Shown here: in pieces, positions 9,016 through 36,632 of the stretch
Position numbering within the stretch: the first letter of the stretch is position 1
Layout of the letters: the number at the start of each line of letters is the position of its first letter
Assembly: GCA_017517305.1 (NCBI GenBank)
Contig: JAFWZV010000020.1
Span: 111,634-175,633 of the forward strand
Length of the DNA: 64,000 nt
Direction: 5' to 3'
Source: Lachnospiraceae bacterium
GTDB taxonomy: Bacteria > Bacillota > Clostridia > Lachnospirales > Lachnospiraceae
Translations under genes and position numbers: made by a program
Notes under the pieces: model-generated
What the model was told of the DNA's origin: nothing
Seen by the model: the letters and a program-made list of their open reading frames with translations, nothing else
The model's database searches: none

Positions 9016-9732
9016 ATGATGATGGATAATCTGGAAGATAGAGTATATACAACCTGTGATGTGTCCTTTCAGCATGATTTGGATTATGTGATGAATAAAT
9101 CCCTACGAGGCTATTCCTTTAGAGAAAGCAAGGATAGCTCTTTGGTTCAGGTGGACTCTAAGAAGAATCAACTTCAAAGTTATGAGAGGACCAAGCAAAA
9201 CAACAAATTTGTGGTGGGTGCTGCAACGCTTGTGGTGATGTTTGGGTCTGCAGGTATATTAGAGCTGTTTCATCTGACTGATAATACAGTGGGCGTTGTG
9301 GTTGTGATAGCTTTAACAATTATAACAGCGGTGGTGTCACATTTGATGGTGAGTGGCCCTAGTGATGTGTTTGTAATGAAGATTGATAACACTAATTGTA
9401 GACTGTACCAGCTTAGAGTTTTGGCCGATGATAAGTGGTGTATAGTCTGTGGTGCCAATTTTGATCACCATAATAATTTGATAAACCATGATTTTATAGC
9501 TGAGGTTGAGGCAACCTATTCTGATTTAATTATAATGGATCAGATGGAATCAGTTGAGGAAACTGATGAAGGTATTATTATTCATGCCAATACAATTCTT
9601 AGAAAGTATGAGCCAGACAAGCCATTTAACAAGTATACAGAGTTAGAAGGTATGCTTCGGATGGATATAGTTATACAGCGTGGAGTATATCCAGAGAACA
9701 TGCTTGACGAAATTGCAGAAGAGATAAAATAG
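9016..9732 (+). CDS. membrane protein of unknown function, paralogue 1
   Basis: A 238-residue protein with an amphipathic N-terminal region (~1-55), two closely spaced transmembrane helices (~57-78 and ~84-105), and a soluble C-terminal domain with 'ADDKWCIVCGANFD', 'YSDLIIMDQMESV' and 'VIQRGVYPENMLDEI'. The next gene encodes a paralogue with the same layout. Three in-frame ATGs occur at 9016, 9019 and 9022. Spacing from GGAGG (ending 9012) favours 9019 or 9022. No enzyme motif is seen. The role is unknown; a small membrane-anchored pair beside a tyrosine phosphatase is all that the context offers. Confidence 0.6.
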   Translation: MMMDNLEDRVYTTCDVSFQHDLDYVMNKSLRGYSFRESKDSSLVQVDSKKNQLQSYERTKQNNKFVVGAATLVVMFGSAGILELFHLTDNTVGVVVVIALTIITAVVSHLMVSGPSDVFVMKIDNTNCRLYQLRVLADDKWCIVCGANFDHHNNLINHDFIAEVEATYSDLIIMDQMESVEETDEGIIIHANTILRKYEPDKPFNKYTELEGMLRMDIVIQRGVYPENMLDEIAEEIK

Positions 9733-9756
9733 TACATATAGATATGGAGAAATACT

Positions 9757-10491
9757 ATGTCAAATAACCTAATTAGCAAACCATATACTCAAGCTCCAAC
9801 TACCTTTCAGCAGGACTTGGATGCATTGCTTAACACCTCCACACAGGCCTACACATTGGTTGAAAGTCCAGAGCATCCAGTTCAGGCTATTAATAGAAAG
9901 AGGCGTTGGAGTGAATTGCAGGAAAAATATGATAACACCCGATACTTATGGGCTTCTACAATTGGTGGAGTTGGAATAGCATCAGCCTGTGTGTTGTTGT
10001 TTATGTTTTTGTCCAATGTGATGTATGGAAAGGACATTGATTCACTTGTTGCCATTACATGTCTCATTTTTGCATTAGCTTCTCTGGCAACTGTGACAGT
10101 GCTGAATCTTTTAAAATGTAACCAATTTGATATATTCATAACTAATCAAAATGATGAGTTTTATCAGTTTAGATTTTTGCCTGATGACAAGCTTTATATC
10201 ATAGGTGGTGCTAATTTTGACGAGAATGGTGATACCTTGGCTATGAACTATATTACAGAGATGGAGCCTATATATTCTGACTTAATTATTATGGATAAAA
10301 TCAAAAGTATAAGTCAAGACAGTGATGGAGCTGTAATTAAGGGTATTGCCAACTTCAGATCCTATAGGATTAATAACGGCGCCAGAGTATACATTGAATT
10401 GGAGAAGAAACAGCATATGACTATATTCATTCAAGATGGAATCTATCCTGAGGATATGCTGGAAACTATTAAAGGTAAATATAATATTTAA
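9757..10491 (+). CDS. membrane protein of unknown function, paralogue 2
   Basis: This 244-residue protein is a diverged tandem copy of its upstream neighbour: shared features are 'FQ(H/Q)DLD', the two-helix membrane hairpin, 'LYQ(F)R.L.DDK', 'GANFD', 'YSDLIIMD' and 'I..G(V/I)YPE(N/D)ML'. The first cytoplasmic stretch has 'NRKRRWSELQEKY', giving a positive-inside membrane anchor. It lies 24 bases after the first copy and is followed by a strong terminator, so the two form one transcript. Function unknown. Confidence 0.6.
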   Translation: MSNNLISKPYTQAPTTFQQDLDALLNTSTQAYTLVESPEHPVQAINRKRRWSELQEKYDNTRYLWASTIGGVGIASACVLLFMFLSNVMYGKDIDSLVAITCLIFALASLATVTVLNLLKCNQFDIFITNQNDEFYQFRFLPDDKLYIIGGANFDENGDTLAMNYITEMEPIYSDLIIMDKIKSISQDSDGAVIKGIANFRSYRINNGARVYIELEKKQHMTIFIQDGIYPEDMLETIKGKYNI

Positions 10492-10499
10492 GCACTCTC

Positions 10500-10538
10500 A
10501 AAGCTTCGACGAAAATTATCGTCGGAGCTTTTTATTTT
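10500..10538 (+). terminator. intrinsic terminator of the paralogue pair
   Basis: A 13-bp stem (10500-10512 with 10519-10531, one G-U pair) is followed by TTTATTTT. It ends the transcript just before the LytTR regulator. Confidence 0.8.
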
Positions 10539-10635
10539 GCTCTCTTATTTCTACATATTTTTCAATTAATTTCCCTTATACTCCCTATACGTCCATATTT
10601 TTCGGTGGAGGATATATTCGTGGGAGGTATATATA

Positions 10636-11160
10636 GTGTTTGTCATAGGGATTCCCCGCGGCAGTTCCGAAGCTACCGCGGAGCTAGAGGACAAGCTTTC
10701 AGGCATATGCGAAAGCTTCGGCTTCAAGCACCGAATTTGCACTTATGATGATACTGAAGAACTAAGGACATTTCTTGAAAATGTATATATAGAGGAGGGG
10801 GATTCATCATCACAGGAAAATGAACATAACCAATACATAGAACTTTTTTATCAGAGATTCAAGTACCGAATAAGGCGTAAGGATATTAAATATATAGAGG
10901 CGTATAACGGCTACACTGAATTCCTTGTGGGGAACAAACGATTCAGAAGAGAAGAGTCGCTTAAGGAGATAGAACAGATGCTGGATATGTCTTTATTCGT
11001 TAAAATCCAGAGAGCCTATATAGTTAATTTGGCACACGTAAAAAGCTACGAGAATATGGAGGTTTTGGTAGGTGAAGAAAGACTTGCAGTGTCTCGCAGA
11101 AGGAGACGGGCCTTCGAGGAAATCTACACCAAATACCACATTTCTACAGAGGGGAAATGA
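10636..11160 (+). CDS. LytTR-domain transcriptional regulator of the RiPP locus
   Basis: Residues ~75-170 form a LytTR DNA-binding domain: 'RFKYRIRRKDIKYIEAYNGYTEF', 'SLKEIEQMLD', 'FVKIQRAYIVNLAHV' and 'LAVSRRRRRAF'. The first ~70 residues are too short for a full response-regulator receiver and show no clear phospho-acceptor aspartate. The start is GTG at 10636, set by GGGAGG eight bases upstream. LytTR proteins (AgrA, ComE) commonly control peptide production through quorum sensing. It sits directly before the precursor peptide, so it is the likely local regulator. No histidine kinase gene is nearby. Confidence 0.85.
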   Translation: MFVIGIPRGSSEATAELEDKLSGICESFGFKHRICTYDDTEELRTFLENVYIEEGDSSSQENEHNQYIELFYQRFKYRIRRKDIKYIEAYNGYTEFLVGNKRFRREESLKEIEQMLDMSLFVKIQRAYIVNLAHVKSYENMEVLVGEERLAVSRRRRRAFEEIYTKYHISTEGK

Positions 11161-11253
11161 ACAAAACTGACCATTTAAGGACTTATGGAACCACTAAAGG
11201 AGTTATCATTGAACAGCTAAAATCACCTTGCTACAATCCTATATAGAAGATGA

Positions 11254-11282
11254 AGTTAATTACACAAAACAAGTAATTAACT
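11254..11282. promoter_or_regulatory. inverted repeat upstream of RiPP precursor (candidate operator)
   Basis: AGTTAATTAC (11254-11263) and GTAATTAACT (11273-11282) form a perfect 10-bp inverted repeat with a 9-base spacer, about 80 bases before the precursor start. Its position suits a regulator-binding site, possibly for the LytTR protein. LytTR sites are more often direct repeats, so this is uncertain. Confidence 0.45.
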
Positions 11283-11361
11283 AGGGGAAATCTTTTATGG
11301 GGATTCTATTATCGGCTTTAAGGAGGTCGGTATTATAGGATAAATAAAGTGGAAAGGAGAA

Positions 11362-11523
11362 ATGGCTATGGGTTGTTCAAATGACGCAGCAGTAGTTGCA
11401 AGCTGTGGTATCGCTTGTTTAGCAGGATGTGGCGCAAGTGCTCTTTTAACTTTAGGAATGGGTACAGCAGTTCTTGCAGTAGCAGGTACTTCAGGCGGAG
11501 CTTTAGGTTCAGTAACAAGCTAG
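11362..11523 (+). CDS. Cys-rich RiPP precursor peptide (sactipeptide-like)
   Basis: A 53-residue open frame with an excellent ribosome-binding site (AAAGGAG), lying between the LytTR regulator and the radical SAM maturase. It begins MAMGCSNDAAVVASC and has cysteines at residues 5, 15, 19 and 23. The last three give the C-x3-C-x3-C pattern of thurincin CD peptides. After it comes a hydrophobic Gly/Ala/Thr/Ser-rich tail (residues ~24-53) that could accept thioether links to alpha carbons. The possible leader is very short (~10 residues) and has no Gly-Gly cleavage site. If matured it would be a hydrophobic cross-linked peptide, probably antimicrobial or a signal. Precursor call strong from context; chemistry inferred. 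Confidence 0.85.
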   Translation: MAMGCSNDAAVVASCGIACLAGCGASALLTLGMGTAVLAVAGTSGGALGSVTS

Positions 11524-11549
11524 TAATAGCTACATAGTAACCTGAGATG

Positions 11550-11587
11550 GGCGGACAGGCTTCCTTGATACATTGGATCTGTTCGCC
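11550..11587 (+). terminator. hairpin between precursor and maturase (attenuator-like)
   Basis: GGCGGACAG (11550-11558) pairs with CTGTTCGCC (11579-11587) through nine pairs with one G-U. Only TAATTTC follows, so termination would be partial. Such hairpins after a precursor gene usually keep precursor mRNA more abundant than enzyme mRNA. Confidence 0.55.
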
Positions 11588-11619
11588 TAATTTCAAATAT
11601 GAATATACGGGGGTGAAGA

Positions 11620-13134
11620 ATGAGTAACAAGAGCCTTTATTATGACAGGTTTAAAACACTGTCGGGGAATACATATTTATATGATGGAGTTACCTCAGTG
11701 GTAGTTCCGGACAATGGTATATTAGAACAAATTATTAGATTAAAGCATCAGGGAAGTAGTGACCAGGAGGTTATGAGTCAGTTGTCTGACACAGATATCT
11801 CCCCTAAGGAGCTTGAAAGCGCATTGATGTTTTACAATAGATGGGAGAGAAATTTTCAAGGCTTTTCTCTAGCTAGAAAGGAGCATCACATTCCGAAGGT
11901 TACAGCCCAGGATATAAAGGACACTTTAGATCAGGGAGACATTTACATATTGATTCTAAATGTAACTGAGGATTGTAATTTTCGTTGCAAATATTGCTAC
12001 CTGTCTGAAGCCTATGACTACACCAGGAACAGGACGACTAAGCGAATGAGCTTCGAGACAGCTAAGGCTGCTATAGATTATTATTACAAGCTTTTAGATG
12101 ACTATAAATTTAAGAAGCCTAATAAAAGGGTGAATATCAATTTCTTCGGTGGAGAGCCACTTTTGGAGTTTGAGCTCCTTAAGAAGTGTGTGGAATACGC
12201 AAAGGCTAATACCACCAGGGAAGTGGCATTTAACATTACTACCAATGGTTATCTTTTGACGGACAAAATCAGTGACTTTTTGGTGGAGAATAATTTTTAC
12301 ATATCAGTAAGTCTTGATGGAGCTAGAAAGAATAACACACAGAGGGTTATGGCAAATGATATTCCTACCTTTGACCGAATAGTGGACAATCTTAAGAGTT
12401 TTAAGAAGCGTTATCCGGATTACACAAATATTGGAATATTGTCTGTCTATGATATTAATACGGACCTAGATGAGAATGTGGATTTCTTTGGTGACCCTGA
12501 GCTTCCACCTGTGCTAAGAGCAACAGGTGTGTCAAATAATAATACAGATTATTATGACCAATTTCAGGATTCGGATTATGAAAAATTTAGAGAGACTATG
12601 TATAGACTTCGTAAGGAGTATCTTGATAAGAAGATGAAAAGTCAGCCTATGTCGGGATACCTTCAGGTGTTCTTTGAATCGGAGCTTTTCACTGTTCTTA
12701 TGAGAAAACGCCACAGAGATGATAATACGGGATCCATAATTCCATATACCGGAACCTGTGTGCCAGGCATAAGACTAAGCGTTAGAGCAGATGGTACATT
12801 GGATATCTGTGAGAGGATGAATCAGGAGTTCCCTATCGGAAATGTGCATACGGGTTATAACTACGAAGCCCTAGCGAATATCGTTAACAAGTACAATGAG
12901 AGCATTACCGCAAGCTGTCGTGAGTGTATCGGCAACAAGATATGTCAGATATGCTTTGCTCAGGTTGCCGGGGACAAGTGCTTTAATTATAAGCCGGAGA
13001 TATGTAAGCAGATTCAGGAGATGATTAAGAATGGTAATTCCATAATATACAGCATTCTTGAGGAGAATCCGGAAGCCTACACTCTCGAGGGTATGGAAAA
13101 GGTAATCGAGAATATGATTAAGTTTGAGGGATAA
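11620..13134 (+). CDS. radical SAM/SPASM peptide maturase
   Basis: A 504-residue enzyme. Residues ~15-85 have the size and pattern of a PqqD-like recognition element that would bind the precursor. The radical SAM core carries C119-N-F-R-C123-K-Y-C126 for the SAM-binding [4Fe-4S] cluster and 'FFGGEPLL' (~176-182) for SAM contact. The C-terminal SPASM domain has Cys-x11-Gly-x4-Cys ('CVPGIRLSVRADGTLDIC'), then 'CRECIGNKICQIC' and two further cysteines for auxiliary clusters. It would form carbon-sulfur links in the adjacent precursor. A GGGGGTGA site precedes the ATG. It is followed without gap by the second SPASM gene. Confidence 0.9.
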   Translation: MSNKSLYYDRFKTLSGNTYLYDGVTSVVVPDNGILEQIIRLKHQGSSDQEVMSQLSDTDISPKELESALMFYNRWERNFQGFSLARKEHHIPKVTAQDIKDTLDQGDIYILILNVTEDCNFRCKYCYLSEAYDYTRNRTTKRMSFETAKAAIDYYYKLLDDYKFKKPNKRVNINFFGGEPLLEFELLKKCVEYAKANTTREVAFNITTNGYLLTDKISDFLVENNFYISVSLDGARKNNTQRVMANDIPTFDRIVDNLKSFKKRYPDYTNIGILSVYDINTDLDENVDFFGDPELPPVLRATGVSNNNTDYYDQFQDSDYEKFRETMYRLRKEYLDKKMKSQPMSGYLQVFFESELFTVLMRKRHRDDNTGSIIPYTGTCVPGIRLSVRADGTLDICERMNQEFPIGNVHTGYNYEALANIVNKYNESITASCRECIGNKICQICFAQVAGDKCFNYKPEICKQIQEMIKNGNSIIYSILEENPEAYTLEGMEKVIENMIKFEG

Positions 13135-13147
13135 AGGAGGAGATAAA

Positions 13148-14404
13148 GTGAGCTGGTTAAGATTTTATCCGGATGTAATTTTGAAGAAGGGATATGTTAA
13201 TTCCACCCTTTATTTTCTCGGTGAGAAGAAGACCATTGTTCTTACCGGAAGAGAAAGTGAATTGCTGAATTATCTACTGGACCACTCTGTGGAAGATGCC
13301 AAGGAGGCTTTTGGGGATGAACTTGTGGATGTTGCCGTGGACAAAGTACTTTCTAGTGGTATGGGAAATCTATATTCAGCAAAGGTTTTCGCAGAGAAAT
13401 ACAAGCCCAATATAGACTTTTTCGTGGAACAGTTTTTCCAGGATAGCTTCGGAATATATGAGTTTTGTGTCCAGCTTCCCGTGGAAGAGCATTCAGAGTA
13501 CAGAGCCCCCAAGGACGTGTTAATTCACGAGGGTTGTAACTCCTATTTTGTTCAAGATATCGATGTTATGTCAGCCCAAAATTACAGGGAATTGCTAAGT
13601 AATAATTTGAAGCTGATACGAGGAGTGGCTGTCAATCATTTCACTATACAGGGCGGCAATCCTATGCGTAACTGGCCTCTCGTAATAGAACTTTTAGATG
13701 AGGTGTCAGAAGGCTTCAGATGTATGACTGAACTTGTATTCCCTAATGTTCCTATAGACAGACACTACATAGAACAGCTTAAGTCATACAACGTGATGAT
13801 TAAGCTAAGTGTCATGGCAGGGGATATTGTATTAGGTGACCAAACCTTTATAGATAATGTGAATATGTTATTTCAGGAGGATATGGATGTTAAGGTCAAC
13901 GTTATCTATGATACAAAGACAAACATTTATCCAAATGGGGTTAATGAGATATTGAATCAGATGGGAATTGATAATACGGACTGTACCCATCTGATTGCAA
14001 ACCCAAAGGACAAGCTACTTGCCCTTAGCACAGGCATAGATAGAGTGGAGAATATAGGTCCTGAAATCTATTACAGAAAGCGAAGCTGTATGTTTGGCAG
14101 GATTGCGGTTACGGCAGATGGCTATATTAGACCATGTAGTTTCAGCTCTCACGTAATAGGATATCTAAGTCATGGTATCATGACGGTGTTTGAAAAGGAC
14201 TTCCACAGCAAGTACTGGAGGCATTCCAAGGAGGATGTGTCTAGATGCAGTGGCTGCGAGAATCGTTTCGCCTGCATGGACTGTGCCAACATAGAGGAAC
14301 TTATCGAAGGACAATGTGACTACCTGAAGGTGTTATGTGATTACAATCCGGAGGAAGGTCAATGGGCTAATGAGAATATCAGAGAGGAGGCGTTCGCATG
14401 GTAG
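13148..14404 (+). CDS. pseudo-radical-SAM SPASM protein (maturase partner)
   Basis: A 418-residue protein with the overall layout of a peptide-modifying radical SAM enzyme but without the CxxxCxxC motif. At the expected site it reads 'HEGCNSYFVQDID', keeping only the first Cys, and the SAM-contact GGE is changed to 'QGGNPM'. The SPASM cysteines remain: 'SCMFGRIAVTADGYIRPC' (Cys-x10-Gly-x4-Cys) and 'CSGCENRFACMDC'. It therefore probably cannot cleave SAM but may hold auxiliary clusters, bind substrate or activate the true maturase. The start is GTG at 13148 with AGGAGG seven bases upstream; a TTG at 13124 in frame is less likely. It overlaps the ABC gene by seven bases. Confidence 0.8.
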   Translation: MSWLRFYPDVILKKGYVNSTLYFLGEKKTIVLTGRESELLNYLLDHSVEDAKEAFGDELVDVAVDKVLSSGMGNLYSAKVFAEKYKPNIDFFVEQFFQDSFGIYEFCVQLPVEEHSEYRAPKDVLIHEGCNSYFVQDIDVMSAQNYRELLSNNLKLIRGVAVNHFTIQGGNPMRNWPLVIELLDEVSEGFRCMTELVFPNVPIDRHYIEQLKSYNVMIKLSVMAGDIVLGDQTFIDNVNMLFQEDMDVKVNVIYDTKTNIYPNGVNEILNQMGIDNTDCTHLIANPKDKLLALSTGIDRVENIGPEIYYRKRSCMFGRIAVTADGYIRPCSFSSHVIGYLSHGIMTVFEKDFHSKYWRHSKEDVSRCSGCENRFACMDCANIEELIEGQCDYLKVLCDYNPEEGQWANENIREEAFAW

Positions 14405-15129
14405 TTGCAGATGTGTCAGGTCTTTCGAAAAGCTATAAGAATAAAAAGGTTTTGGATAATATTTCTTTTCAGCTCAACAAGGGCGATATAGTAGGCTATT
14501 TGGGCAAGAATGGTTCCGGCAAAACCACAACCATCAACATACTTGTGGGCTTGCTTGGGTATGACGCAGGAAATATTTCTATACTGGGTTATGATATATC
14601 TAAGGATTACAACAGTCTCTACGGCAAGCTAGGTATTATGTTTGACGAAAATGGCCTATATAACAAGATGACTGTGAAGCAGAATCTGGACTATTTTGTT
14701 AAGCTGTATAAGGTTGACTTAAGGAGAAATAAATCCTTTGTATCAGAGCTATACAAGGAGATGGATTATGAGAGCATTAAGAATATCCAGGTGTCCAAGC
14801 TCTCTAAGGGAATGAAGCGAATGGTAGCCCTGGTCAGAACTCTTATGATGTGGCCCGAGCTCCTTATCTTAGACGAGCCCTTCGATGGTATCGACATAGA
14901 AAATAGATGTAGTTTTATCAATCTTATAAAGAAGTATTATCAGGCAAAAAAGCCTACCATCATCTTAACGTCACATGTAATGGCTGATATTGAAGAGCTA
15001 GCTAACCGTATAATAATTCTTAAGGATAGCAGGATAATTTTAGATCAGTCCATAGAAGATTTTAAGGCTCAGGGAGCTGATGACGCTAAGTCACTAAGCG
15101 AGATTTATCTAAGCAAGATTTGCGGTTAG
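14398..15129 (+). CDS. ABC transporter ATP-binding protein (RiPP export or immunity)
   Basis: A 243-residue ATPase with Walker A 'YLGKNGSGKTTTIN' (~34-47), Q-loop region 'GIMFDENGLYNKMTV', signature 'LSKGMKRMVALVRTL' (Ser-Lys-Gly in place of the usual Ser-Gly-Gly), Walker B 'LLILDEPFDG', and 'ILTSHVM' as H-loop. This is the drug/bacteriocin self-resistance type of ABC-2 transporter. The ATG overlaps the end of the SPASM gene and has GAGGAGG upstream, so it is translated with the maturases. It works with the permease that follows to pump the product or protect the producer. Confidence 0.9.
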   Translation: MVVADVSGLSKSYKNKKVLDNISFQLNKGDIVGYLGKNGSGKTTTINILVGLLGYDAGNISILGYDISKDYNSLYGKLGIMFDENGLYNKMTVKQNLDYFVKLYKVDLRRNKSFVSELYKEMDYESIKNIQVSKLSKGMKRMVALVRTLMMWPELLILDEPFDGIDIENRCSFINLIKKYYQAKKPTIILTSHVMADIEELANRIIILKDSRIILDQSIEDFKAQGADDAKSLSEIYLSKICG

Positions 15130-15138
15130 GAGGAGCAT

Positions 15139-15858
15139 ATGAAGAATGATGTGTATATGATTAGAGTTATTATCAAAAAAGAAATTGTAGACACCTTTAG
15201 AACTCTAGGATTATTTTTAGTTGCCCTTACACTTTGCTTTAATCTATGTATTTATATCACTGATACTCAGATAATAGAGCTTGGACTTCCTGCTGATGTG
15301 GTGCCATATCAGCTAGGGCTCAGTATGATGTATCTTATGGCTATGACCGCACTCTTTTTAGGTACAACCCTAACCAACAAGATGATATATGAGGAAAAAC
15401 GTACTAAGACCATGCATATGATTTTAGGTATGGGTGTGCCTAAGGAGGTTATGTGGCTAGGTAAGATTTTAGCCATAGTTATTATGTGTGCCTTGTTCGG
15501 AGTGATGAATATTTTGGTTCATGTATTATTTGTATGGGTAAAATTTGGCATATTAATGAAGTTTAATTCCATGGCTATTACTATGGTGTTTATTACAGTT
15601 CCTTTGCTATGCTATGGCTTTATAGCTTTGGCTTCAGTGGCATATATGTATTTTAGCCGTATGAACATCGTGGGAATGTTTATCCAGATAGTCCCTTATC
15701 TGGCTGTATGGGAGGTGTCTTCAGAACTTATAAAATTTACCCAGGTTCCAATTTACGTGATGCTATTAAGCTTGGGAATTGGTGTGGTGGCTCTTTTGGT
15801 GTCTATGCTTCTTGTTTGCGGAATGTCTAAGGAAAGGATAGTGAGTAGAGTTGACTAA
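15139..15858 (+). CDS. ABC-2 type permease of the RiPP locus
   Basis: A 239-residue membrane protein with about six hydrophobic segments (~18-38, ~63-84, ~105-128, ~140-165, ~172-190, ~200-228) and no enzyme motif, as expected for an ABC-2 permease. It starts nine bases after the ATPase gene with TTAGGAGG upstream. A conserved-looking loop 'NKMIYEEKRTKTMHMILGMGVPKEVMWLGK' between helices 2 and 3 matches the coupling region of CcmA/NodI-type transporters. Together with the ATPase it forms the export or immunity pump. Confidence 0.85.
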   Translation: MKNDVYMIRVIIKKEIVDTFRTLGLFLVALTLCFNLCIYITDTQIIELGLPADVVPYQLGLSMMYLMAMTALFLGTTLTNKMIYEEKRTKTMHMILGMGVPKEVMWLGKILAIVIMCALFGVMNILVHVLFVWVKFGILMKFNSMAITMVFITVPLLCYGFIALASVAYMYFSRMNIVGMFIQIVPYLAVWEVSSELIKFTQVPIYVMLLSLGIGVVALLVSMLLVCGMSKERIVSRVD

Positions 15859-16303
15859 TATTGTGACAGAGAAAAGATATGTGGATCAGTTATATGGATT
15901 TACCATTGATATTCCTACTGGGTGGAGTATTAATCAAAATATAGAAGATATGAGATTATTTATCTGTAGGGAAAATCCTCAGGAGATGATTACATCTAAT
16001 TTGAACATGTGTGTCTTCGAGAATCTTAATGGGGGCACCATAGAGCAGATTCTCAGAAAAACACGAATAGATGTAAGGCGAATGGTTCAAGATTTTAAAG
16101 CCATAGAAACTAAGAAGATAGATGATAATTTGGGCAGCTTTATGTGTAAAGCTATCTATCAGGGAAAGGAATATATTTACCATCAAAATATATATCTAAT
16201 GGAGGATGAAATATATTGCTTTACATCCTGTTATTGTTGCCAGGATGACAAATGGGTAGAAGAACAGTTGGAGTATATGTTGCTCTCAGTAGACTTTAGT
16301 TAG
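15851..16303 (+). CDS. small DcrB/PsbP-like protein in RiPP operon
   Basis: A 150-residue soluble protein with 'YGFTIDIPTGWSINQ' near the N-terminus, the typical opening of DUF1795/DcrB and PsbP-like beta sandwich domains, and a closing 'EEQLEYMLLSVDF'. There is no signal peptide. The proposed start is TTG at 15851, overlapping the permease gene by eight bases; GTG at 15863 is an alternative, and neither has a strong ribosome-binding site. Its place in the operon suggests immunity or accessory function. The cysteine-rich 'CFTSCYCCQ' near residue 130 is unusual. Confidence 0.6.
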   Translation: MTNIVTEKRYVDQLYGFTIDIPTGWSINQNIEDMRLFICRENPQEMITSNLNMCVFENLNGGTIEQILRKTRIDVRRMVQDFKAIETKKIDDNLGSFMCKAIYQGKEYIYHQNIYLMEDEIYCFTSCYCCQDDKWVEEQLEYMLLSVDFS

Positions 16304-16313
16304 GAGGTATGAT

Positions 16314-16508
16314 ATGACTACAGCTTTTTGTTGGATTATATGTATAGCCATATTGCTTGGGGTGGATGTGTTTTTCGGTAAGCGTGACAAAGTGAAGGAT
16401 ACAGATGAAACTCCTAGGGAGAAAAGAGTTAGGACAGTAAAGGGAATTATTCTTGCAGCTGCCATGGTGGGACTTGCCTGTGCTATATCATATTTTGTAA
16501 GAAAATAG
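16314..16508 (+). CDS. small two-helix membrane protein (possible immunity)
   Basis: A 64-residue protein with hydrophobic helices at ~4-20 and ~43-60 separated by a charged loop ('KRDKVKDTDETPREKRVR'). TAGGAGG lies eight bases before the ATG. It is the last gene before the terminator at 16529. Small membrane proteins at the end of bacteriocin operons often give self-immunity; that role is only an inference here. Confidence 0.6.
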   Translation: MTTAFCWIICIAILLGVDVFFGKRDKVKDTDETPREKRVRTVKGIILAAAMVGLACAISYFVRK

Positions 16509-16528
16509 AATATAATGTCAGTGTGTAT

Positions 16529-16576
16529 AAAATATCCCCATTTCAGGTAAAAATTACTTGAAGAGGGGATATTTTT
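16529..16576 (+). terminator. terminator of the RiPP operon
   Basis: AAAATATCCCC (16529-16539) pairs perfectly with GGGGATATTTT (16565-16575), followed by further T. The 25-base loop is long but the stem is strong. Confidence 0.75.
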
Positions 16577-16609
16577 ACATATTACTCAAATGAGTCCTCG
16601 AGGAGGTGT

Positions 16610-18214
16610 ATGGTGATCAAAAAGGAAAGGTTTTTAATTCACGCAGTTATACTAGCTGTGGCCGGCTTCGTATCCCGAGCTTTAGGGCTACTTTACGCGG
16701 TTCCCTTGTACCACATAATCGGTGAGGAGGGAAATGGATACTACGGCACAGCCTATGAAATATACAATATGCTTCTTCTTATCACTGCCTACAGTATGCC
16801 CATGGCAATATCTAAGATAATGTCTGTGTATGTGGCAGAGAAAGATTATGTAAACTGCAAAAGACTGTTTAGAACCTGTCTTTTTTACGTGATTGTAGTA
16901 GGTGGAATAGGTGCTATTGTTACTTACATTTTCGCAGATAGTTTTGTTATAGTCCCGGCGGCTCTTTCTCTTAGGGTTATGGCGCCAACTATATTTTTCT
17001 CTGGGTTGCTAAGTGTGCTTAGAGGCTACACTCAGGCCCATAACACCATGGTTCCAACGGCTTTGTCTCAGATTGTGGAGCAGATTTTCAATGCTATATG
17101 CAGCATTATTTTTGCCTATGTTTTGGTCGGGTATGCTACGGATAATAAGACTGTAAATCTACCACCTACAGCCTACGGTGCCATGGGAAGCGCGTTGGGA
17201 ACTCTAATTGGTGTGCTGGTAGCTTTGACATTTATGATTATATACATTATGTTAACTAGAAAAAGCAGGAAAATGCTGTATCAGAAAAACACTTCTCCTG
17301 ATGTGGTGGATTCTCGTAATAAGCCAAAGGAGCCGGAGCCCTATTTTACATTGTTTAGAGTTATATTTGTGTACGCATCCCCTATAATTTTAACCAGCTT
17401 TTTATATAACCTATGTACAACCTTGGATATGAAAATCTTCTGGGATTGGGCTCTTGATAATGGTTATTCTCAGGAAACAGCAGCAAGGGTATTCGGTATA
17501 TTTTCCAGACAGTATTTGGTTTTAATCAATGTTCCAATAACTATAGCCTCTGCCATTTCCTCCTCCATGGTGCCTGGGTTATCTGTTGCATTTTCCTCAG
17601 AAGATATGACGGAGGTAAAGTTTAGAATAAGCAAGGCTGTAAGGACAGTGGTGTTATTTGCAGTGCCTTCAGTGGTGGGTCTTTCGGTTTTGGCTAAGCC
17701 TATTATGCAGCTGTTGTTTAAGGGCACCAACGATGCTGCATCAGATGCATTGATACTAGGAAGCATTTCTGTGCTGTTCTTCTCTGTGGGAACGGTTTTA
17801 ACCAGCGGACTTCAGACCATGGGCAAAAGCTTTATAGCAATCAAAAATGTAGCCAGAGCCCTTATTATTCACATCCTGTATCTAGTGGGAATGCTCAAAT
17901 TGTCTGGTAGCATCATGGGAATTTTGGTTACAGGCTCAGTGCTTTATTCTATGGTTATGTGCTTTGCGAATATTAAGTCCATGGAGAAAATCTTTGACTG
18001 CAAATTAAGGCTTATAAGCGTTATGGGAAAGCCTGTTTTAGCATCCCTGCTTATGGCATTGGTGGCAGCTATAGGAGTGAAAGTTTTAGATAGCTGGGGA
18101 TTTAATAATTTTTGGAGTGTATTAATAACCATAGTTGTATCAATATTAGTTTATTTTATGATGTTCTATTTTAACAGAGATTACAAAGATAAAGGTATCT
18201 TTTATAATTTATAA
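16610..18214 (+). CDS. SpoVB/MurJ-type polysaccharide or lipid flippase
   Basis: A 534-residue membrane protein of the PST/MOP superfamily with about 14 hydrophobic helices. 'FVSRALGLLYAVPLY' in the first helix and 'GYTQAHNTMVPTALSQIVEQIF' around residue 145 are hallmarks of the SpoVB/YtgP/YkvU family. These proteins flip undecaprenyl-linked cell-wall precursors across the membrane. AGGAGG is only three bases from the ATG at 16610 and six from an in-frame GTG at 16613, so GTG may be the true start. It stands alone between the RiPP terminator and rubrerythrin. Confidence 0.85.
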   Translation: MVIKKERFLIHAVILAVAGFVSRALGLLYAVPLYHIIGEEGNGYYGTAYEIYNMLLLITAYSMPMAISKIMSVYVAEKDYVNCKRLFRTCLFYVIVVGGIGAIVTYIFADSFVIVPAALSLRVMAPTIFFSGLLSVLRGYTQAHNTMVPTALSQIVEQIFNAICSIIFAYVLVGYATDNKTVNLPPTAYGAMGSALGTLIGVLVALTFMIIYIMLTRKSRKMLYQKNTSPDVVDSRNKPKEPEPYFTLFRVIFVYASPIILTSFLYNLCTTLDMKIFWDWALDNGYSQETAARVFGIFSRQYLVLINVPITIASAISSSMVPGLSVAFSSEDMTEVKFRISKAVRTVVLFAVPSVVGLSVLAKPIMQLLFKGTNDAASDALILGSISVLFFSVGTVLTSGLQTMGKSFIAIKNVARALIIHILYLVGMLKLSGSIMGILVTGSVLYSMVMCFANIKSMEKIFDCKLRLISVMGKPVLASLLMALVAAIGVKVLDSWGFNNFWSVLITIVVSILVYFMMFYFNRDYKDKGIFYNL

Positions 18215-27832: not shown

Positions 27833-29248
27833 ATGAAGAAAATAGCAATCGCAGGATTAATTACAATAGCTATGTTATCTCTTGTCGCATGTAGTGGCAA
27901 GGAACAGGTAGATTATGATGTAACAGAAGCTACATCATCGGATGGGGTAGATACTGAATCAGCTACACAGTCATCCGGAGAGGACGAAGCAGCACATACC
28001 ACAGAACAAAATAATGAAGTGGGTGACACTAACCAAGCTTCATCCGTTGTAACTTCTGAGTGGCAGGTTCCGGAAAAGCTGGAAGTAAAAATTACCGGAG
28101 AGGAAAGAGATGTCAATATATACGCGGATATTACTGTTCCTGATGCATATAAGAAATGTCAGGTGGTAGAGCTTGTGAGAGACGACTTTACAGATGAGGA
28201 TATAGTCAGTATGGCGGAGAAAGTATTTGATGAAGGAAGTTACTTTTTATGTATGCCTTCATGGCCATGCACTGCGGAATATTATGCTGAAGTTCATCTA
28301 AAGTTAACTCATATTAGGGATACCATTTCAGATGAAGGAAATGCATTGATTGAGATTAATCAGGCTATAGGGAGCTACGAACAAAATCAACTGGAAACCT
28401 CTGAATTTGATAATCAGGAGGAGACGGATGGAACAATTAGATTTTACACTTCCAACAATGGAGAGTTTGTGGACAAGGAATGCTGTGAAATCGTGGGAAC
28501 CATAGATGGAGATTATTATACATTGGTTTTCGAGAAGAGTAAGGGAGCTTGTTATGCATGGTTGTTTAAGTATGGTATGAATGAGGATACTAGTGAGGTG
28601 GGTTCAGATAATATCGATGTGAAGCTAATGGGTAACACTTGCATATACTCCGAAGAGGAAGCTACTGCCATTGCTGTAGAGTATTTAGAGAAGCTTGGAA
28701 TTACTGATATGGTTCCAGTTCATGTGAATCATGTTGTAAGACGAGAAGATGTGAATGGTTATAGTGTGTATTTTGGTAGAAAATATGAAAATTATCATCT
28801 GACCTACACAACAGCTAATTTTACTATAAACAGATATTCTTATTTGACCAACGATGAGGCAAATGATTTTGGTGGATATACAACTATGGAGTGTATTAGA
28901 ATAGAAATTGGCGATGATGGTGTTAGGGAATTTGAGATATCAAGTCCTATGAAGCAAGGCGAAATAATGACAGAAGATGCAGTGCTTCTTCCTTGGGATT
29001 CAGTGAATAATTTAGCTTGTGAAACTCTTTCTAAAGCGGCAGATGACCAAAGCAAGAATATTGTTATAGAACAGATTGAACTAGGCTATGGTATAGAAAA
29101 GAAAGACAATAGGGTTGCACTTGTTCCGGTGTGGTATTATTTTGATATTAATGCAGTAGATGATTCCTATAGATATACAAAAACATCAATTCTAGAGATT
29201 AATGCCTTAGATGGTAGTATAATAAAAGATGTACCTACGGAACAGTAG
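27833..29248 (+). CDS. array lipoprotein 2
   Basis: A 471-residue paralogue with lipobox Leu-Val-Ala-Cys (Cys20) and a longer Ser/Thr/Glu linker (~25-75) than its siblings. The family block that usually reads YFLYMPY is 'YFLCMPSWPCTAEYY' here, with two extra cysteines. 'GYSVYFGRKYENYHLTY' and 'ALVPVWYYFDI' are intact, and the protein ends 'INALDGSIIKDVPTEQ'. TAGGAGG precedes the ATG. It is the first gene behind box 2 and the hairpin array. Confidence 0.8.
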   Translation: MKKIAIAGLITIAMLSLVACSGKEQVDYDVTEATSSDGVDTESATQSSGEDEAAHTTEQNNEVGDTNQASSVVTSEWQVPEKLEVKITGEERDVNIYADITVPDAYKKCQVVELVRDDFTDEDIVSMAEKVFDEGSYFLCMPSWPCTAEYYAEVHLKLTHIRDTISDEGNALIEINQAIGSYEQNQLETSEFDNQEETDGTIRFYTSNNGEFVDKECCEIVGTIDGDYYTLVFEKSKGACYAWLFKYGMNEDTSEVGSDNIDVKLMGNTCIYSEEEATAIAVEYLEKLGITDMVPVHVNHVVRREDVNGYSVYFGRKYENYHLTYTTANFTINRYSYLTNDEANDFGGYTTMECIRIEIGDDGVREFEISSPMKQGEIMTEDAVLLPWDSVNNLACETLSKAADDQSKNIVIEQIELGYGIEKKDNRVALVPVWYYFDINAVDDSYRYTKTSILEINALDGSIIKDVPTEQ

Positions 29249-29286
29249 GTAATGATATAGAGTGTGAAGTGTGCAAGGAGATACGT

Positions 29287-30666
29287 ATGAAAAAGAAATT
29301 GATTATGAAAATGGCGGTTTTATCTTTGACAGCATTTACTATGCTACCCTTAACCGCCTGTGGCAATAAAAAACAAGTGGATTACACCACTGAAGCAACA
29401 GAGGAAGCTGTTGACGCTATGGTAGAAGCAGAAATTCCAGACAAGGTATCTTATGAGCTTATGGGAGAGGGTGGAACCATAATAGTAGATGCTGACATTA
29501 TCCTGCCTGAAAACCATGACAAATGCTCTGTGGTGGAGTATTCTATTAAGCGATTTACAGATGAGGATGTGAAAGGCCTGGTTGAAAAGATATTCGACAA
29601 GGACAGCTATTTCCTGTATATGCCTTATTCTGAGGAACAGATAGAGATTGCAAAGGACAAGCTTACCAGCATAAGGGATGCATCAACAGACGAGAGGGAA
29701 AGATACACACTGCAAAATGAGCTACTCAATTTGGATAATCGTATAAAAAATCTAAGTCCTGCCTTTAAGGATATGGAACAAATAGAAGAGCTTAAGCTTT
29801 ATACCATACCGGAAGAGGACGGGTGGCATCCTGAGATTGAAAAATGCTGTCTCATAGGAGCCATAGATGGAAGGTACTATTATATGCTAATAGCTCAGAG
29901 CGCAGATAAGGGAAATGTAATCATGAAGCTACAGCTGCTTAGAGACATGAATAATGATGCAAATGGTAATCTAGGCCCGGACAGCTTAGATGTTCAGATA
30001 TATGAAAATAAGTGTGTGTATTCTAAGGATGAAGCAAAGAAGCTTGCCACAGATTACATACAGTCATTGGGGTATACAGATTATGAAGCTATAGAAGTAT
30101 TTGACTGTAAGGAAAATAATTATGCCCCAAGTCAGGATATTAGGGAAATGAATAGCTATAATATATACTTTGGTAGGAAGATAGATGGATATAATCTGAC
30201 ATTTAACACATCAAACTGCCCAGACTTTTTTATAGATGTAGTAGGGGACAGCTATATAGCTGGTAATAACATAGCTACGGAATACATAAAGGTAAATGTA
30301 GATAGCGATGGAATAAGTGAGCTACTGATATTCAATCCTATGAAGGAGGAACGGATATTAGATAATCACGCTAAGCTACTGTCCTTTGAAAATATAGATA
30401 ATATAGCTAGGGAGGACCTACAAAGCTATATTGATTATACCTTCGATGGAATGCAGATTAAGACAATAAATATTAATGAAATAGAGCTGGGTTATGGTTA
30501 TACCTATGATCAGGAAACTGATAGGTATGCACTAATCCCCGTATGGTTTTACATGGTTGATGAGGATAGAAGTAATTTTGATTTTGGAAGAATGGATTTT
30601 ACCAACTATAATGCCATGGATGGTTCACCTAAGGATATAAATGCATTTAGCGTAACTATATATTAA
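29287..30666 (+). CDS. array lipoprotein 3
   Basis: A 459-residue paralogue. The signal peptide ends in Leu-Thr-Ala-Cys (Cys25), followed by the shared 'NKKQVDYTTE'. 'YFLYMPYSEEQIEIAKDKL' is well conserved. The end diverges: 'ALIPVWFYMVDED' and 'YNAMDGSPKDINAFSVTIY', so the final strand is lost or replaced. GGAG seven bases before the ATG at 29287 sets the start; a GTG six codons upstream is also in frame. The gap to the previous gene is 38 bases, same operon. Confidence 0.8.
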   Translation: MKKKLIMKMAVLSLTAFTMLPLTACGNKKQVDYTTEATEEAVDAMVEAEIPDKVSYELMGEGGTIIVDADIILPENHDKCSVVEYSIKRFTDEDVKGLVEKIFDKDSYFLYMPYSEEQIEIAKDKLTSIRDASTDERERYTLQNELLNLDNRIKNLSPAFKDMEQIEELKLYTIPEEDGWHPEIEKCCLIGAIDGRYYYMLIAQSADKGNVIMKLQLLRDMNNDANGNLGPDSLDVQIYENKCVYSKDEAKKLATDYIQSLGYTDYEAIEVFDCKENNYAPSQDIREMNSYNIYFGRKIDGYNLTFNTSNCPDFFIDVVGDSYIAGNNIATEYIKVNVDSDGISELLIFNPMKEERILDNHAKLLSFENIDNIAREDLQSYIDYTFDGMQIKTININEIELGYGYTYDQETDRYALIPVWFYMVDEDRSNFDFGRMDFTNYNAMDGSPKDINAFSVTIY

Positions 30667-30700
30667 CTTTTTCTATAAAAGCTTACAAGGAGGTTTCACC

Positions 30701-32071
30701 ATGAAACGAAAATCAATATACCTGGCATTAGCAACAATTTCACTAATTGCCCTTGCTGGCTGTGGCAAGAAGCAGGTAGACTACAACGTGACAGAAACTC
30801 CAGGTGGAGCAGAGATTACAGAAGCTGCTGACAACCCACAGGCTATAGAGTCAGAAATCCCAGAGACCTTAAACTATGAATTAGTCGGTAAGATGTCAAC
30901 TATTAGAGTTAATGCCACCGTAAAGCTTCCTGACAAATACACCCAGTGCTCAGTAGTGGAGCTTGGTAAGAAGTCTTATGAGGATGCAGACATAAAGTAT
31001 TACGCAGATAAGATATTCGATAAGGGAAGCTACTTCCTATATATGCCTTATAGCGCAGAGCAGATTGCGTACTGCAGGGACAAACTTAATGAGATATTAG
31101 AAGGAACTGATGATGAGGAACTAAGGCATGTTATTGAAGACGGATATTTGATTAATATAGGCTTTCGTGAAAGTTATCTGACTGGAGATGAGGAAATCGA
31201 CGGAACACTTAAGTTTAATACAGTTCGCCCATATCCTGAAGATGCAGATATTCAGGAATTCACTAATATGTGTCAGATAATAGGTACCATAGATGGACAG
31301 TATTATATGCTAGTTTTTGAGAAGAATGATATAAACTACCATATGTACCTTCACCGTTTAGAGGATTATTCTATTCAAGAGGTGGGAGCAGAATCCTTTG
31401 ACATGAAGCTAACAGGAAATCTATGTGAGTACACGCAGGAAGAGGCAGAAAAGCTTGCCAGAGACTATGTGGAAATGCTAGGGTATGGAGATCTTAGCAT
31501 AGTCAAATCCATCAATGCCGAGAAGGCATATTATACAGTGGAGAACGCAACCGGGGAGAAGAACTATGCCCAAGAAATCCAAGGCTATAACATATATTTC
31601 GGTAGAAAATATGGTGGATATTCCGTAACCTATACTGATGATAACTATTGTAGGTACCAAGGGTTTGGACAGTATTCTACCTTTGATGGTGACCCGGAGT
31701 GGATTACAATTACTGACATGAAGGAGTTCATCCGTGTTTATGTAGATAATAACGGAATATGCGAGGTTGATATAGTAAATCCTATGATTGAGGATAGTAT
31801 TGCAACTGAAAATGCAATTCTTCTTGACTTTGACTCTATGCTTCAGGCTGCAAATTCTGAGCTTCAAAGCTACGCAGATGATTATAAAAACAGCTTTATA
31901 ATAGAGGAGATAGAGCTTGGTTACGGCATAGAGCAAAAGGACGGTAAGACCTCCTTGGTACCAACCTGGTATTTCTTCGATAATAGCTACGGAGAGGACA
32001 GACAACATTACTTTAGACACCCATGTCTTATGATAAATGCACTAGATGGAAGTGTACTATACAGATATTAA
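30701..32071 (+). CDS. array lipoprotein 4
   Basis: A 456-residue paralogue with lipobox Leu-Ala-Gly-Cys (Cys21) and 'GKKQVDYNVTE'. The motifs 'YFLYMPYSAEQIAYCRDKL', 'GYNIYFGRKYGGYSVTY' and 'SLVPTWYFFDNS' are present, and it ends 'INALDGSVLYRY'. AAGGAGG lies eight bases before the ATG. It is the last gene of the second lipoprotein operon; the terminator with the structured insert follows. Confidence 0.82.
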   Translation: MKRKSIYLALATISLIALAGCGKKQVDYNVTETPGGAEITEAADNPQAIESEIPETLNYELVGKMSTIRVNATVKLPDKYTQCSVVELGKKSYEDADIKYYADKIFDKGSYFLYMPYSAEQIAYCRDKLNEILEGTDDEELRHVIEDGYLINIGFRESYLTGDEEIDGTLKFNTVRPYPEDADIQEFTNMCQIIGTIDGQYYMLVFEKNDINYHMYLHRLEDYSIQEVGAESFDMKLTGNLCEYTQEEAEKLARDYVEMLGYGDLSIVKSINAEKAYYTVENATGEKNYAQEIQGYNIYFGRKYGGYSVTYTDDNYCRYQGFGQYSTFDGDPEWITITDMKEFIRVYVDNNGICEVDIVNPMIEDSIATENAILLDFDSMLQAANSELQSYADDYKNSFIIEEIELGYGIEQKDGKTSLVPTWYFFDNSYGEDRQHYFRHPCLMINALDGSVLYRY

Positions 32072-32080
32072 AAAACGATG

Positions 32081-32206
32081 AGGACCAAGAAAAAACTTTA
32101 TTCCGGCCGCGACAGGGTCCCACTAAGCTGACCGTTATAGTGTCAGCGCGGTGGGAACCCTAGGCAGGCCGGCCAGTAAAGTACATAATTGGTCCTTAAG
32201 TTTTTT
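32081..32206 (+). terminator. terminator carrying structured insert, copy A
   Basis: AGGACCAA (32081-32088) pairs with TTGGTCCT (32189-32196), followed by a T-run (32201-32206). The loop holds a structured element: CCGGCC/GGCCGG (32103/32167), GGG/CCC (32115/32158), CCCAC/GTGGG (32119/32151) and a GCTGAC/GTCAGC apical hairpin (32127/32142). Its unpaired CGACAGGG and CCCTAGGCAGG are identical to those of copy B at 41.3 kb. Confidence 0.75.
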
Positions 32207-32257
32207 GATACAATTCGGATACATTTCGGATACATTTCCATGCTACTATGCTATTAA
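32207..32257 (+). promoter_or_regulatory. lipoprotein regulon box 3 and promoter
   Basis: Three repeats 11 bases apart: GATACAATTCG (32207), GATACATTTCG (32218), GATACATTTCC (32229). TGCTATTAA at 32249-32257 supplies an extended -10, at the same distance from the last repeat as in box 1. The first repeat begins right at the end of the terminator T-run. Confidence 0.65.
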
Positions 32258-32291
32258 GTGATAATGTATATACTATTAGGAGGATTAATTT

Positions 32292-33641
32292 ATGAGAAGA
32301 AAAACAGCTATGGTTGTAGTAGGTATTATGCTTTGCTCTTTAATGGGCTGTGGCAAGAAAGAGGTGGATTACTCGGATGCTACAGAAAGCGCAAATGGTG
32401 AGGTGCAGGTAGAAAGCCAAACCACAGAGGCGGAATCCATTGAGATTCCTGAGAACATAGAGTACACCATCACAGGTGCCAAGGGTACTATAGAGGTTGC
32501 GGCAGAGATTAAGGTGCCGGAGGATTATGAGAAGTGTACTGTTATGGAGCTTTCAAGAGTTGTCTATGAGGATGAGGACATTAAGGCCATGGCAGACAAA
32601 ATCTTCGATGAGGGAAGTTATTTCCTATATATGCCTTATAACGAGGAGGCTAGAGCCAATCTTCGCGATAAGCTGACAACAGCCTCAGCAAATGCTGCAA
32701 ATGATTGGGATGCAGCTACATTTGAATATGTATTAGGAAAATTTGATGAGGAAGATTTCTTCTCCACATCAGATGAAAGCTTTGATGAACTTAAGTTCTA
32801 CCAAGTGGATGAAGATGATAACTTTTGTAAAGTACTTGGTGCTATAGATGGAAGATACTATGTTCTTTCCTTTGAGAAGAATGGTAATAATTGTGGCGTG
32901 AAACTTGTGAGATGGGACAGAACCATTGGTTTTCAGCTAGCTGATTATAGTGCAGATTCCATAGATGTGAGAACATCAGGTAATGCTAGTATCCATTCTC
33001 AGGAAGAATCAGAAGCTATGGCTATGGAATTTGCCATGAAACTTGGATATGAAGGATATGGAGTAGTGCAGTCAAATGTGGCTTTTTATGCATGTACATT
33101 ACCAAAGGATGAAAGTACTATAGATAGAGAAGATTTTATTCAGGGAGTAGATGGTTATAATGTGTACCTTGGTCGCAATTATAATAATTATTCTATGGCA
33201 TATTCATCAGAAAACTGGATAATGGAGTATCTTGATATTGATGGTAGTGAAATAGTATATGAAGATTTTCCTGTAGAAAAATTTGAGAACACAGAGTGCA
33301 TAAGAGTATATGTAGATGGACAGGGAATCTGTGAGATGAAGGTATACAATCCTATGGAGGAGGTAGGTCCTATGAATGAGGACATAGTCTTCCTTCCATT
33401 TGATAAGGTGGACGGTATTGCTCAGGATGAGTTACAGGCCTATGCTGATGCAAATAGCGGAAAGTTTAAGATTGAGTCAATTCAGCTTGCATATGGTATG
33501 GTGGATGAGGATGGTAAGAAGGCTTTAGTTCCTGTGTGGTATTATTTCGGTAAGGATGCTTTGAACAATCAGAGCTTCTATCAGCAGAACGCAATTGTTA
33601 TGATTAATGCCTTAGACGGAACAGTTATCACTTATGAATAA
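32292..33641 (+). CDS. array lipoprotein 5
   Basis: A 449-residue paralogue with lipobox Leu-Met-Gly-Cys (Cys20) and 'GKKEVDYSDATES'. 'YFLYMPYNEEARANLRDKL', 'GYNVYLGRNYNNYSMAY' and 'ALVPVWYYFGKD' are intact; the C-terminus is 'INALDGTVITYE'. The helical insert between the first two blocks is shorter and acidic ('KFDEEDFFSTSDES'). TAGGAGG precedes the ATG. First gene behind box 3. Confidence 0.82.
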   Translation: MRRKTAMVVVGIMLCSLMGCGKKEVDYSDATESANGEVQVESQTTEAESIEIPENIEYTITGAKGTIEVAAEIKVPEDYEKCTVMELSRVVYEDEDIKAMADKIFDEGSYFLYMPYNEEARANLRDKLTTASANAANDWDAATFEYVLGKFDEEDFFSTSDESFDELKFYQVDEDDNFCKVLGAIDGRYYVLSFEKNGNNCGVKLVRWDRTIGFQLADYSADSIDVRTSGNASIHSQEESEAMAMEFAMKLGYEGYGVVQSNVAFYACTLPKDESTIDREDFIQGVDGYNVYLGRNYNNYSMAYSSENWIMEYLDIDGSEIVYEDFPVEKFENTECIRVYVDGQGICEMKVYNPMEEVGPMNEDIVFLPFDKVDGIAQDELQAYADANSGKFKIESIQLAYGMVDEDGKKALVPVWYYFGKDALNNQSFYQQNAIVMINALDGTVITYE

Positions 33642-33721
33642 AAGCAATTTATATTTACTATTATTTGGGATTAAATTAAAATGGGGATAAACAAATTTAA
33701 GACATTATCAGGAGAAATGTA

Positions 33722-35116: not shown

Positions 35117-35126
35117 TAGTTAGCTG

Positions 35127-36470: not shown

Positions 36471-36482
36471 GATTTTTATTTT

Positions 36483-36514
36483 GATACATTTTAGATACAT
36501 TTCTATAATATAAT
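36483..36514 (+). promoter_or_regulatory. lipoprotein regulon box 4
   Basis: Two repeats, GATACATTTTA (36483) and GATACATTTCT (36494), 11 bases apart. Overlapping TATAAT sequences occur at 36504-36509 and 36509-36514, so the -10 lies closer than in boxes 1-3. No terminator separates it from the preceding gene, so it may be an internal promoter. Confidence 0.55.
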
Positions 36515-36632
36515 ACAAAATGTGGGAAACGCCTAAAGTGAATACTTAATTACAAAGGAGGCGAAAAGGGAGATTCTATATTTATACACTTGGGGAAATT
36601 AAAATACAAATTATAAAATAAGGAGAAATAAT

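Follow-up and report, generated by a model that had tools for sequence, protein, structure and literature searches.

Here, we describe a gene cassette in a stretch of 64,000 nucleotides of Lachnospiraceae DNA (the window) that probably makes a sulfur-bridged peptide, as judged from its gene sequences. It encodes a Cys-rich precursor, a 504-amino-acid (aa) radical SAM (S-adenosylmethionine) enzyme with a SPASM domain and, next to it, a 418-aa SPASM protein that has lost CX3CX2C, the motif of the SAM site. Because homologous pairs with Cys-rich peptides recur, one of them on an R. albus plasmid with the annotation huazacin family, the cassette belongs with the two-enzyme systems of thuricin CD and huazacin. 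An earlier sequence-only reading of the window had proposed a sactipeptide-like locus of the thuricin CD kind for a ribosomally synthesised and post-translationally modified peptide (RiPP); this proposal is borne out by homologous cassettes with Cys-rich precursors, one of which carries a curated huazacin-family precursor. We consider it likely that the product is a hairpin peptide closed by thioether bridges, like thuricin CD and huazacin, with the 504-aa protein as catalyst and the 418-aa protein as a needed, non-catalytic partner.

The sequences show the gene content, its conservation and homology, the loss of the motif and the empty site in relatives; from these, we infer the chemistry, complex formation, export, immunity and an antibacterial role. 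The 504-aa enzyme, bearer of the SAM-cleaving cluster, would remove hydrogens from residues in the Gly/Ala/Thr/Ser-rich tail of the precursor and link these residues to the N-terminal Cys. The 418-aa protein would hold substrate and enzyme, as TrnD does for TrnC in thuricin CD. The two-gene ABC (ATP-binding cassette) transporter would act in product export, self-protection or both, each of the two small proteins is a candidate for immunity, and the cassette promoter would be driven by the LytTR protein. In 2025, mutants made in work on thuricin CD showed that, where two radical SAM enzymes cooperate, one of them can do without its SAM site (PMC12093266). The present locus suggests, on the basis of trees, that evolution reached a SAM-site-free partner in two separate lineages, with the Cys of the auxiliary clusters retained. 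Such a natural pair makes the role of pseudo-radical SAM (pseudo-rSAM) partners in RiPP clusters directly testable.

The source genome (G000) comprises 2.72 Mb in 25 contigs, with the window on contig G000:C20. A list of open reading frames (ORFs), together with NCBIfam and Pfam scans of the eight window cassette proteins, gives the features below; all eight genes lie on the + strand, and every part that the sequence-only reading had named from regulator to small genes is present.

10636..11160, +: DNA-binding regulator of the LytTR type in which no receiver was recognised (PF04397, 57.4 bits, residues 78-163; no Response_reg match)
11170..11237, +: a pair of direct repeats (at 11170 and 11190, 20 bp apart) and a promoter-like TTGAAC-17-TACAAT (11209-11237)
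11368..11523, +: Cys-rich precursor, 51 aa from its likelier start (53 aa from ATG 11362), conserved in Lachnospiraceae SIG296
11548..11589, +: hairpin between precursor and enzyme genes (folding z-scores)
11620..13134, +: radical SAM/SPASM maturase, 504 aa, CX3CX2C present (PF04055, 67 bits)
13148..14404, +: second SPASM protein, 418 aa, radical-SAM-derived, CX3CX2C lost, SPASM Cys kept (motif, alignment, predicted fold)
14398..15129, +: ABC transporter ATPase (PF00005, 100.7 bits)
15139..15858, +: ABC permease, four predicted hydrophobic segments (tblastn to the G178 permease, E 6e-10; hydropathy; Pfam below cut-off only)
15851..16303, +: 150-aa protein with a PsbP/DcrB/EagT6-like predicted fold (low-confidence model), candidate chaperone or immunity protein
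16314..16508, +: 64-aa protein, hydropathy showing two hydrophobic segments, 46/64 residues conserved in SIG296, candidate immunity protein

The second protein and its lost SAM site

CX3CX2C is absent from the second protein in both the window and Lachnospiraceae SIG296 (locus L005, on a contig carried by genome G003), and because the motif is lacking, the protein as it stands is not a radical SAM enzyme. The sequence-only reading had likened the pair to the two SPASM enzymes of thuricin CD; the second is indeed a protein of SPASM/radical SAM descent, but its SAM motif is missing. This descent from a radical SAM/SPASM enzyme is indicated by alignment and modelling. The SPASM-type Cys are invariant in a six-row alignment (seven are kept in the window protein), hhalign matches the six-row profile A5 to profile A6 at a probability of 97.4, and a radical-SAM barrel is found in the predicted fold. 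The AlphaFold model has a mean pLDDT (predicted local distance difference test) of 48.2 and is better only at residues ~170-290; because it is weak elsewhere, the fold matches rest on this region.

CX3CX2C is kept in 10 of 13 second-type homologues (those of the nine cassettes described below and unpaired proteins in G622, G902, G932 and G1168), and the third protein without it is that of G224. On the trees, the starred branches force at least two separate losses of the motif, with G224 having lost it separately. On neither tree do dead and live proteins group more than in shuffled labels, and G224 forms a long branch. A lost motif could also be the mark of a decaying gene without function, and the second protein is less similar to its SIG296 counterpart (316 of 418 residues identical, 75.6%) than the first enzyme is (471 of 504, 93.5%). 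We regard decay as very improbable: length and frame are equal in both species, the SPASM Cys are kept, and the ratio of nonsynonymous to synonymous substitution rates (dN/dS, by the NG86 method, window against SIG296) is ~0.06, from a dN of 0.17 and a dS of 3.1 that is saturated, so that the method is rough here. For the first enzyme, dN is 0.040 and dS is 1.65; high dS values are saturated throughout.

Thuricin CD (TrnA/B with TrnC/TrnD) is like the window cassette in its Cys-x3-Cys-x3-Cys peptide and in having one active radical SAM/SPASM enzyme, an adjacent second one and transporter genes (PMC12093266; PMC3132745). As described there, TrnD binds TrnC and the precursor, cleaves SAM, keeps CX3CX2C and has a truncated SPASM domain with three Cys; with its SAM-cluster Cys mutated, it still gives full crosslinking with TrnC (PMC12093266). 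The window protein is the reverse of TrnD, with seven SPASM-type Cys and no CX3CX2C. Because the equivalent SAM site of TrnD is dispensable, the window protein looks by analogy like a natural non-catalytic partner, in which the state of the TrnD mutant has been fixed by evolution. Degenerate second proteins had already been published in thuricin CD-like clusters in 2011, namely a TrnD homologue without CX3CX2C in C. difficile 630 and a 430-aa Petrotoga protein showing only GG motifs (PMC3132745), so the system is a variant rather than a new kind.

Several points weigh against a hairpin peptide made with such a partner. The two-row profile A2 (the window pair alone) does not match profile A6 significantly (probability 4.7), and at E up to 1 the huazacin model NF037972 (cut-off 35 bits) gives no hit to the precursor of the window. 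Strict equivalence to TrnD does not follow, because three SPASM Cys stand against seven and TrnC/TrnD were compared by description only. Further, the system is known here from its genes alone, with product, activity and complex being predictions.

Instead of mainly holding the substrate, the second protein might act through its SPASM clusters as an electron relay or second tailoring enzyme, which would account for SPASM-type Cys that are invariant although the SAM site is lost. TrnD binding to both TrnC and precursor speaks for a holding role; the auxiliary-cluster double mutants in that system lost activity too, so that the thuricin CD data do not separate the two roles (PMC12093266). We judge the relay unlikely, and it stays a live rival to the substrate-holding partner because of the seven SPASM-type Cys here against three in TrnD.

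Known pseudo-rSAM families were considered as well. The TIGR04148/TIGR04150 and grasp-with-spasm (TIGR04193) systems similarly place a SPASM-bearing pseudo-rSAM beside another enzyme, and pseudo-rSAMs are described as having no function assigned by experiment (PMC10352776). Unlike their members, the window protein falls far below both cut-offs, with 15.3 bits for TIGR04150 (pseudo-rSAM, cut-off 250) and 39.1 bits for TIGR04193 (SPASM_w_grasp, cut-off 175), and membership was rejected.

Related cassettes and the first enzyme

With the second protein or the enzyme as query, 397, 398, 391 and 397 genomes were searched, and plasmids in addition. Seven further cassettes have both proteins adjacent: G178 (L013), G197 (L014), G664 (L016), R. 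albus 7 pRUMAL03 (L017), G368 (L049), G224 (L050) and G235 (L051). Six of these seven loci carry Cys-rich ORFs next to the homologues of both proteins, bringing the count to eight of nine cassettes with the window and SIG296, so the short ORF is conserved beside homologous maturases, as the sequence-only reading would have it. No precursor was recognised in G224, where the contig stops ~0.4 kb past the second protein. A four-residue Cys spacing is common in the cassettes other than that of G368, which has two different precursors (L049:6899-7326) with 7 and 8 Cys, mostly at every third residue.

The R. albus plasmid provides the link to known peptides. Its two precursor copies are annotated as huazacin family RiPP peptides, and the R. 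albus precursor scores 50.1 bits with NF037972; the G664 peptides score 34.4 and 9.5 bits, and those of G178 and G197 give no match to this model. The R. albus enzyme is 31% identical to the window enzyme over 84%. Like the window, huazacin/thuricin Z and R. albus pRUMAL03 have the order precursor, radical SAM enzyme, second protein, ABC ATPase and permease. R. albus differs from the window in carrying its precursor twice, each copy opening with 18 residues free of Cys; its second protein retains CX3CX2C, and its cluster also encodes a CPBP protease and a full LytTR regulator with a GHKL kinase. A separate observation concerns WP_013483961.1 (L017:7347-8588), which is annotated 'hypothetical protein', contains CDNNCFFC and SPASM-type Cys, and on this sequence seems to be the second radical SAM protein of the huazacin-like cluster, missed by the annotation.

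In the first enzyme, C119/C123/C126 (CX3CX2C) and the SPASM Cys C380, C397, C433, C436, C442, C445 and C462 are invariant in a five-row alignment, and CX3CX2C is present in all nine cassettes. Its nearest NCBIfam family is TIGR04068 (CcpM), at 234.2 bits against a cut-off of 500. Membership of the CcpM/TIGR04066 system was ruled out by this score and by the different type of partner; a true CcpM locus (L006) scores 560 bits and has the TIGR04066 partner.

The nearest curated families also bear on bridge chemistry. The bridges might be non-alpha-carbon thioethers (ranthipeptide type) or mixed, rather than sactionines, and the enzyme's scores include families of both kinds below their cut-offs: the sactipeptide maturase RumMC (NF035951, 171.8 bits, cut-off 720) and the ranthipeptide family PapB (147 bits). 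We consider this alternative rather unlikely, since an N-terminal Cys cluster with an uncharged Ser/Thr/Gly/Ala tail is the arrangement of hairpin sactipeptides, and the R. albus relative is annotated as huazacin family.

Four second-type homologues, in G622, G902, G932 and G1168, lie outside pairs; for G622 and G1168 the missing partner is uncertain because these loci are on short or contig-end stretches. Those of G902 (L025:6873-8824) and G932 (L023:4873-6138) are lone second-type radical SAM proteins with no first enzyme nearby, the latter following a Cys/Pro-rich repetitive ORF, and possibly belong to another peptide system. At an E-value limit of 1e-60, the enzyme profile matched 16 of 397 genomes. 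Of the 22 matches listed, seven were examined (the source genome, G178, G197, G368, G224 and two in G235); at L052, the second of the G235 loci, no second protein of this family adjoins the enzyme. A scan of genome contigs returned L005, the true CcpM locus and the weaker loci L007 and L008. Among viral contigs, profile A5 found no relative and profile A6 one weak locus (L026). On plasmids, the only hits of the second protein were weak ones to two Elizabethkingia grasp-with-spasm records, and the first enzyme matched 33 records, the top two of which, from R. albus and Sarcina, were examined. Among phages, 58 records matched the R. albus enzyme at under 60% identity.

The precursor and the leader question

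The sequence-only reading had given the precursor 53 residues (ORF 11362-11523) with Cys at 5/15/19/23. These Cys stand, but the start is probably further in: a GGAG at 11356-11359 is separated by 2 nt from ATG 11362 and by 8 nt from ATG 11368, a spacing that makes the latter the likelier start and that is identical in SIG296. The likelier peptide thus has 51 residues and the N-terminus MGCSN; the G197 peptide begins MACSN. Its tail is rich in Ser/Thr/Gly/Ala and has no charged residue. The SIG296 ORF is equally long and identical at 49 of 53 residues, the four Cys included (dN 0.035, dS 0.19). The third position has changed in 8 of the 53 precursor codons and in 203 of the 504 enzyme codons (Fisher p 2.8e-4). 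Conservation of the precursor DNA is unusual in extending to silent sites, for which high expression may be the reason.

A leader is the usual state of RiPP precursors. The short leader claimed by the sequence-only reading is indeed short, an understatement even, as only two residues precede the first Cys from the likelier start. This Cys is at residue 5 in the window and SIG296 (3 from the likelier start), 2 in G178 and 3 in G197, and thus at 2-5 in all four peptides with a short N-terminus, which coincide with the starred enzyme clade. In seven peptides of G664, R. albus, G368 and G235 it is at 17-25. None of the four short peptides has an acidic residue before the first Cys. Their tails after the last Cys have 30-31 residues, which should be long enough to fold back as far as the first Cys in a hairpin (span 18-22 plus the turn). 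In thuricin CD, by contrast with the single window precursor and its first Cys at residue 3-5, a Cys-free acidic leader comes first, and thuricin leaders frequently contain Glu and Asp (PMC3132745).

The sequence-only reading had also found no peptidase, and none was recognised by Pfam among the eight window cassette proteins; for the short group, the scans took in these eight, four G178 ORFs, one G197 ORF and none of SIG296. The R. albus cassette carries a CPBP peptidase and that of G368 an S41 peptidase (two of the four long-leader cassettes), making for a weak link between leader and peptidase.

The precursor may therefore be nearly leaderless, going by its sequence. Tentatively, and with more doubt than confidence, we can picture a system in which the whole ~50-residue core forms one hairpin with up to four bridges, including one from the first Cys, and needs no proteolysis; its one active radical SAM enzyme would depend on the SAM-site-free partner, and this partner rather than a leader would recognise the substrate. 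Alternatively, the N-terminal 12-20 residues could be an ordinary leader that holds Cys by chance, only the later Cys being bridged and a protease coded elsewhere removing the leader. Leaders being the norm, and Gly-rich stretches (AGG, SG) lying ahead of the last CX3C in G197 and G178, we give this an even chance, and hold a Cys-containing ordinary leader to be about as likely as leaderlessness. The position of the first Cys across the clade, the residues before it and the peptidase scan of the window argue against such a leader. A literature search by title or start of abstract returned no leaderless sactipeptide, which is not proof of absence. Should the precursor truly be leaderless, the question becomes how a radical SAM maturase recognises its substrate without one.

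Chromosomal site, regulation and neighbouring genes

The cassette is discrete and conserved, with an empty site in relatives. Among 145 genomes of relatives (the source genome included), precursor and second protein each occur in two, the source genome and G003. SIG296 has the identical gene order at the same locus. The flanking genes are ones that we take from their sequences to be lmwPTP, murJ and rubrerythrin. In the two cassette-free relatives examined (G009 and G018), lmwPTP adjoins murJ, and nucleotide similarity to the window restarts at 16541; from this comparison, the cassette spans roughly 10.49-16.53 kb. The sequence-only reading had closed the cassette with a terminator. The hairpin at ~16532-16572 is there, 3' of the cassette and terminator-like, but it is part of the ancestral site, because it precedes murJ in both cassette-free relatives. 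No transposase or integrase family matched any of the eight cassette proteins in the NCBIfam and Pfam scans. Two related proteins with two hydrophobic segments each, u1 and u2 (9016-10491), lie between lmwPTP and the cassette; at this site SIG296 and G009 have one copy (u2 in G009) and G018 has none.

The receiver that Pfam did not recognise in the window regulator is present in its G178 and G235 counterparts, and the regulator frame begins later in SIG296. The direct repeats, presumably a LytTR binding site, are conserved in SIG296 together with their spacing and the TACAAT; the promoter scan as a whole was at chance level (19 found, 20.6 expected). The hairpin behind the precursor has a z-score of -4.4 in a 51-nt segment and -5.0 in the short SIG296 segment, and in longer segments of -1.8 (window) and -2.5 (SIG296). 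The fold of the 5' untranslated region has a z-score of -5.8 in the window and only -1.6 in the SIG296 segment. No Rfam family reached its gathering threshold in 9700-17000.

NCBIfam, Pfam and PHROGs offer no convincing match for the precursor or for either small protein, and neither the precursor nor the second protein matches a PDB sequence. The model of the 150-aa protein has a pLDDT of 58.7 and its best Foldseek match is PsbP (E 2.1e-4). EagT6-type proteins shield hydrophobic segments, and a chaperone or immunity role for the 150-aa protein would be a guess from this model. Elsewhere in the window, 27833-38060 holds seven consecutive ORFs of 447-475 aa that all match DUF6034 (PF19499; 7/7 scanned), a tandem family of unknown function.

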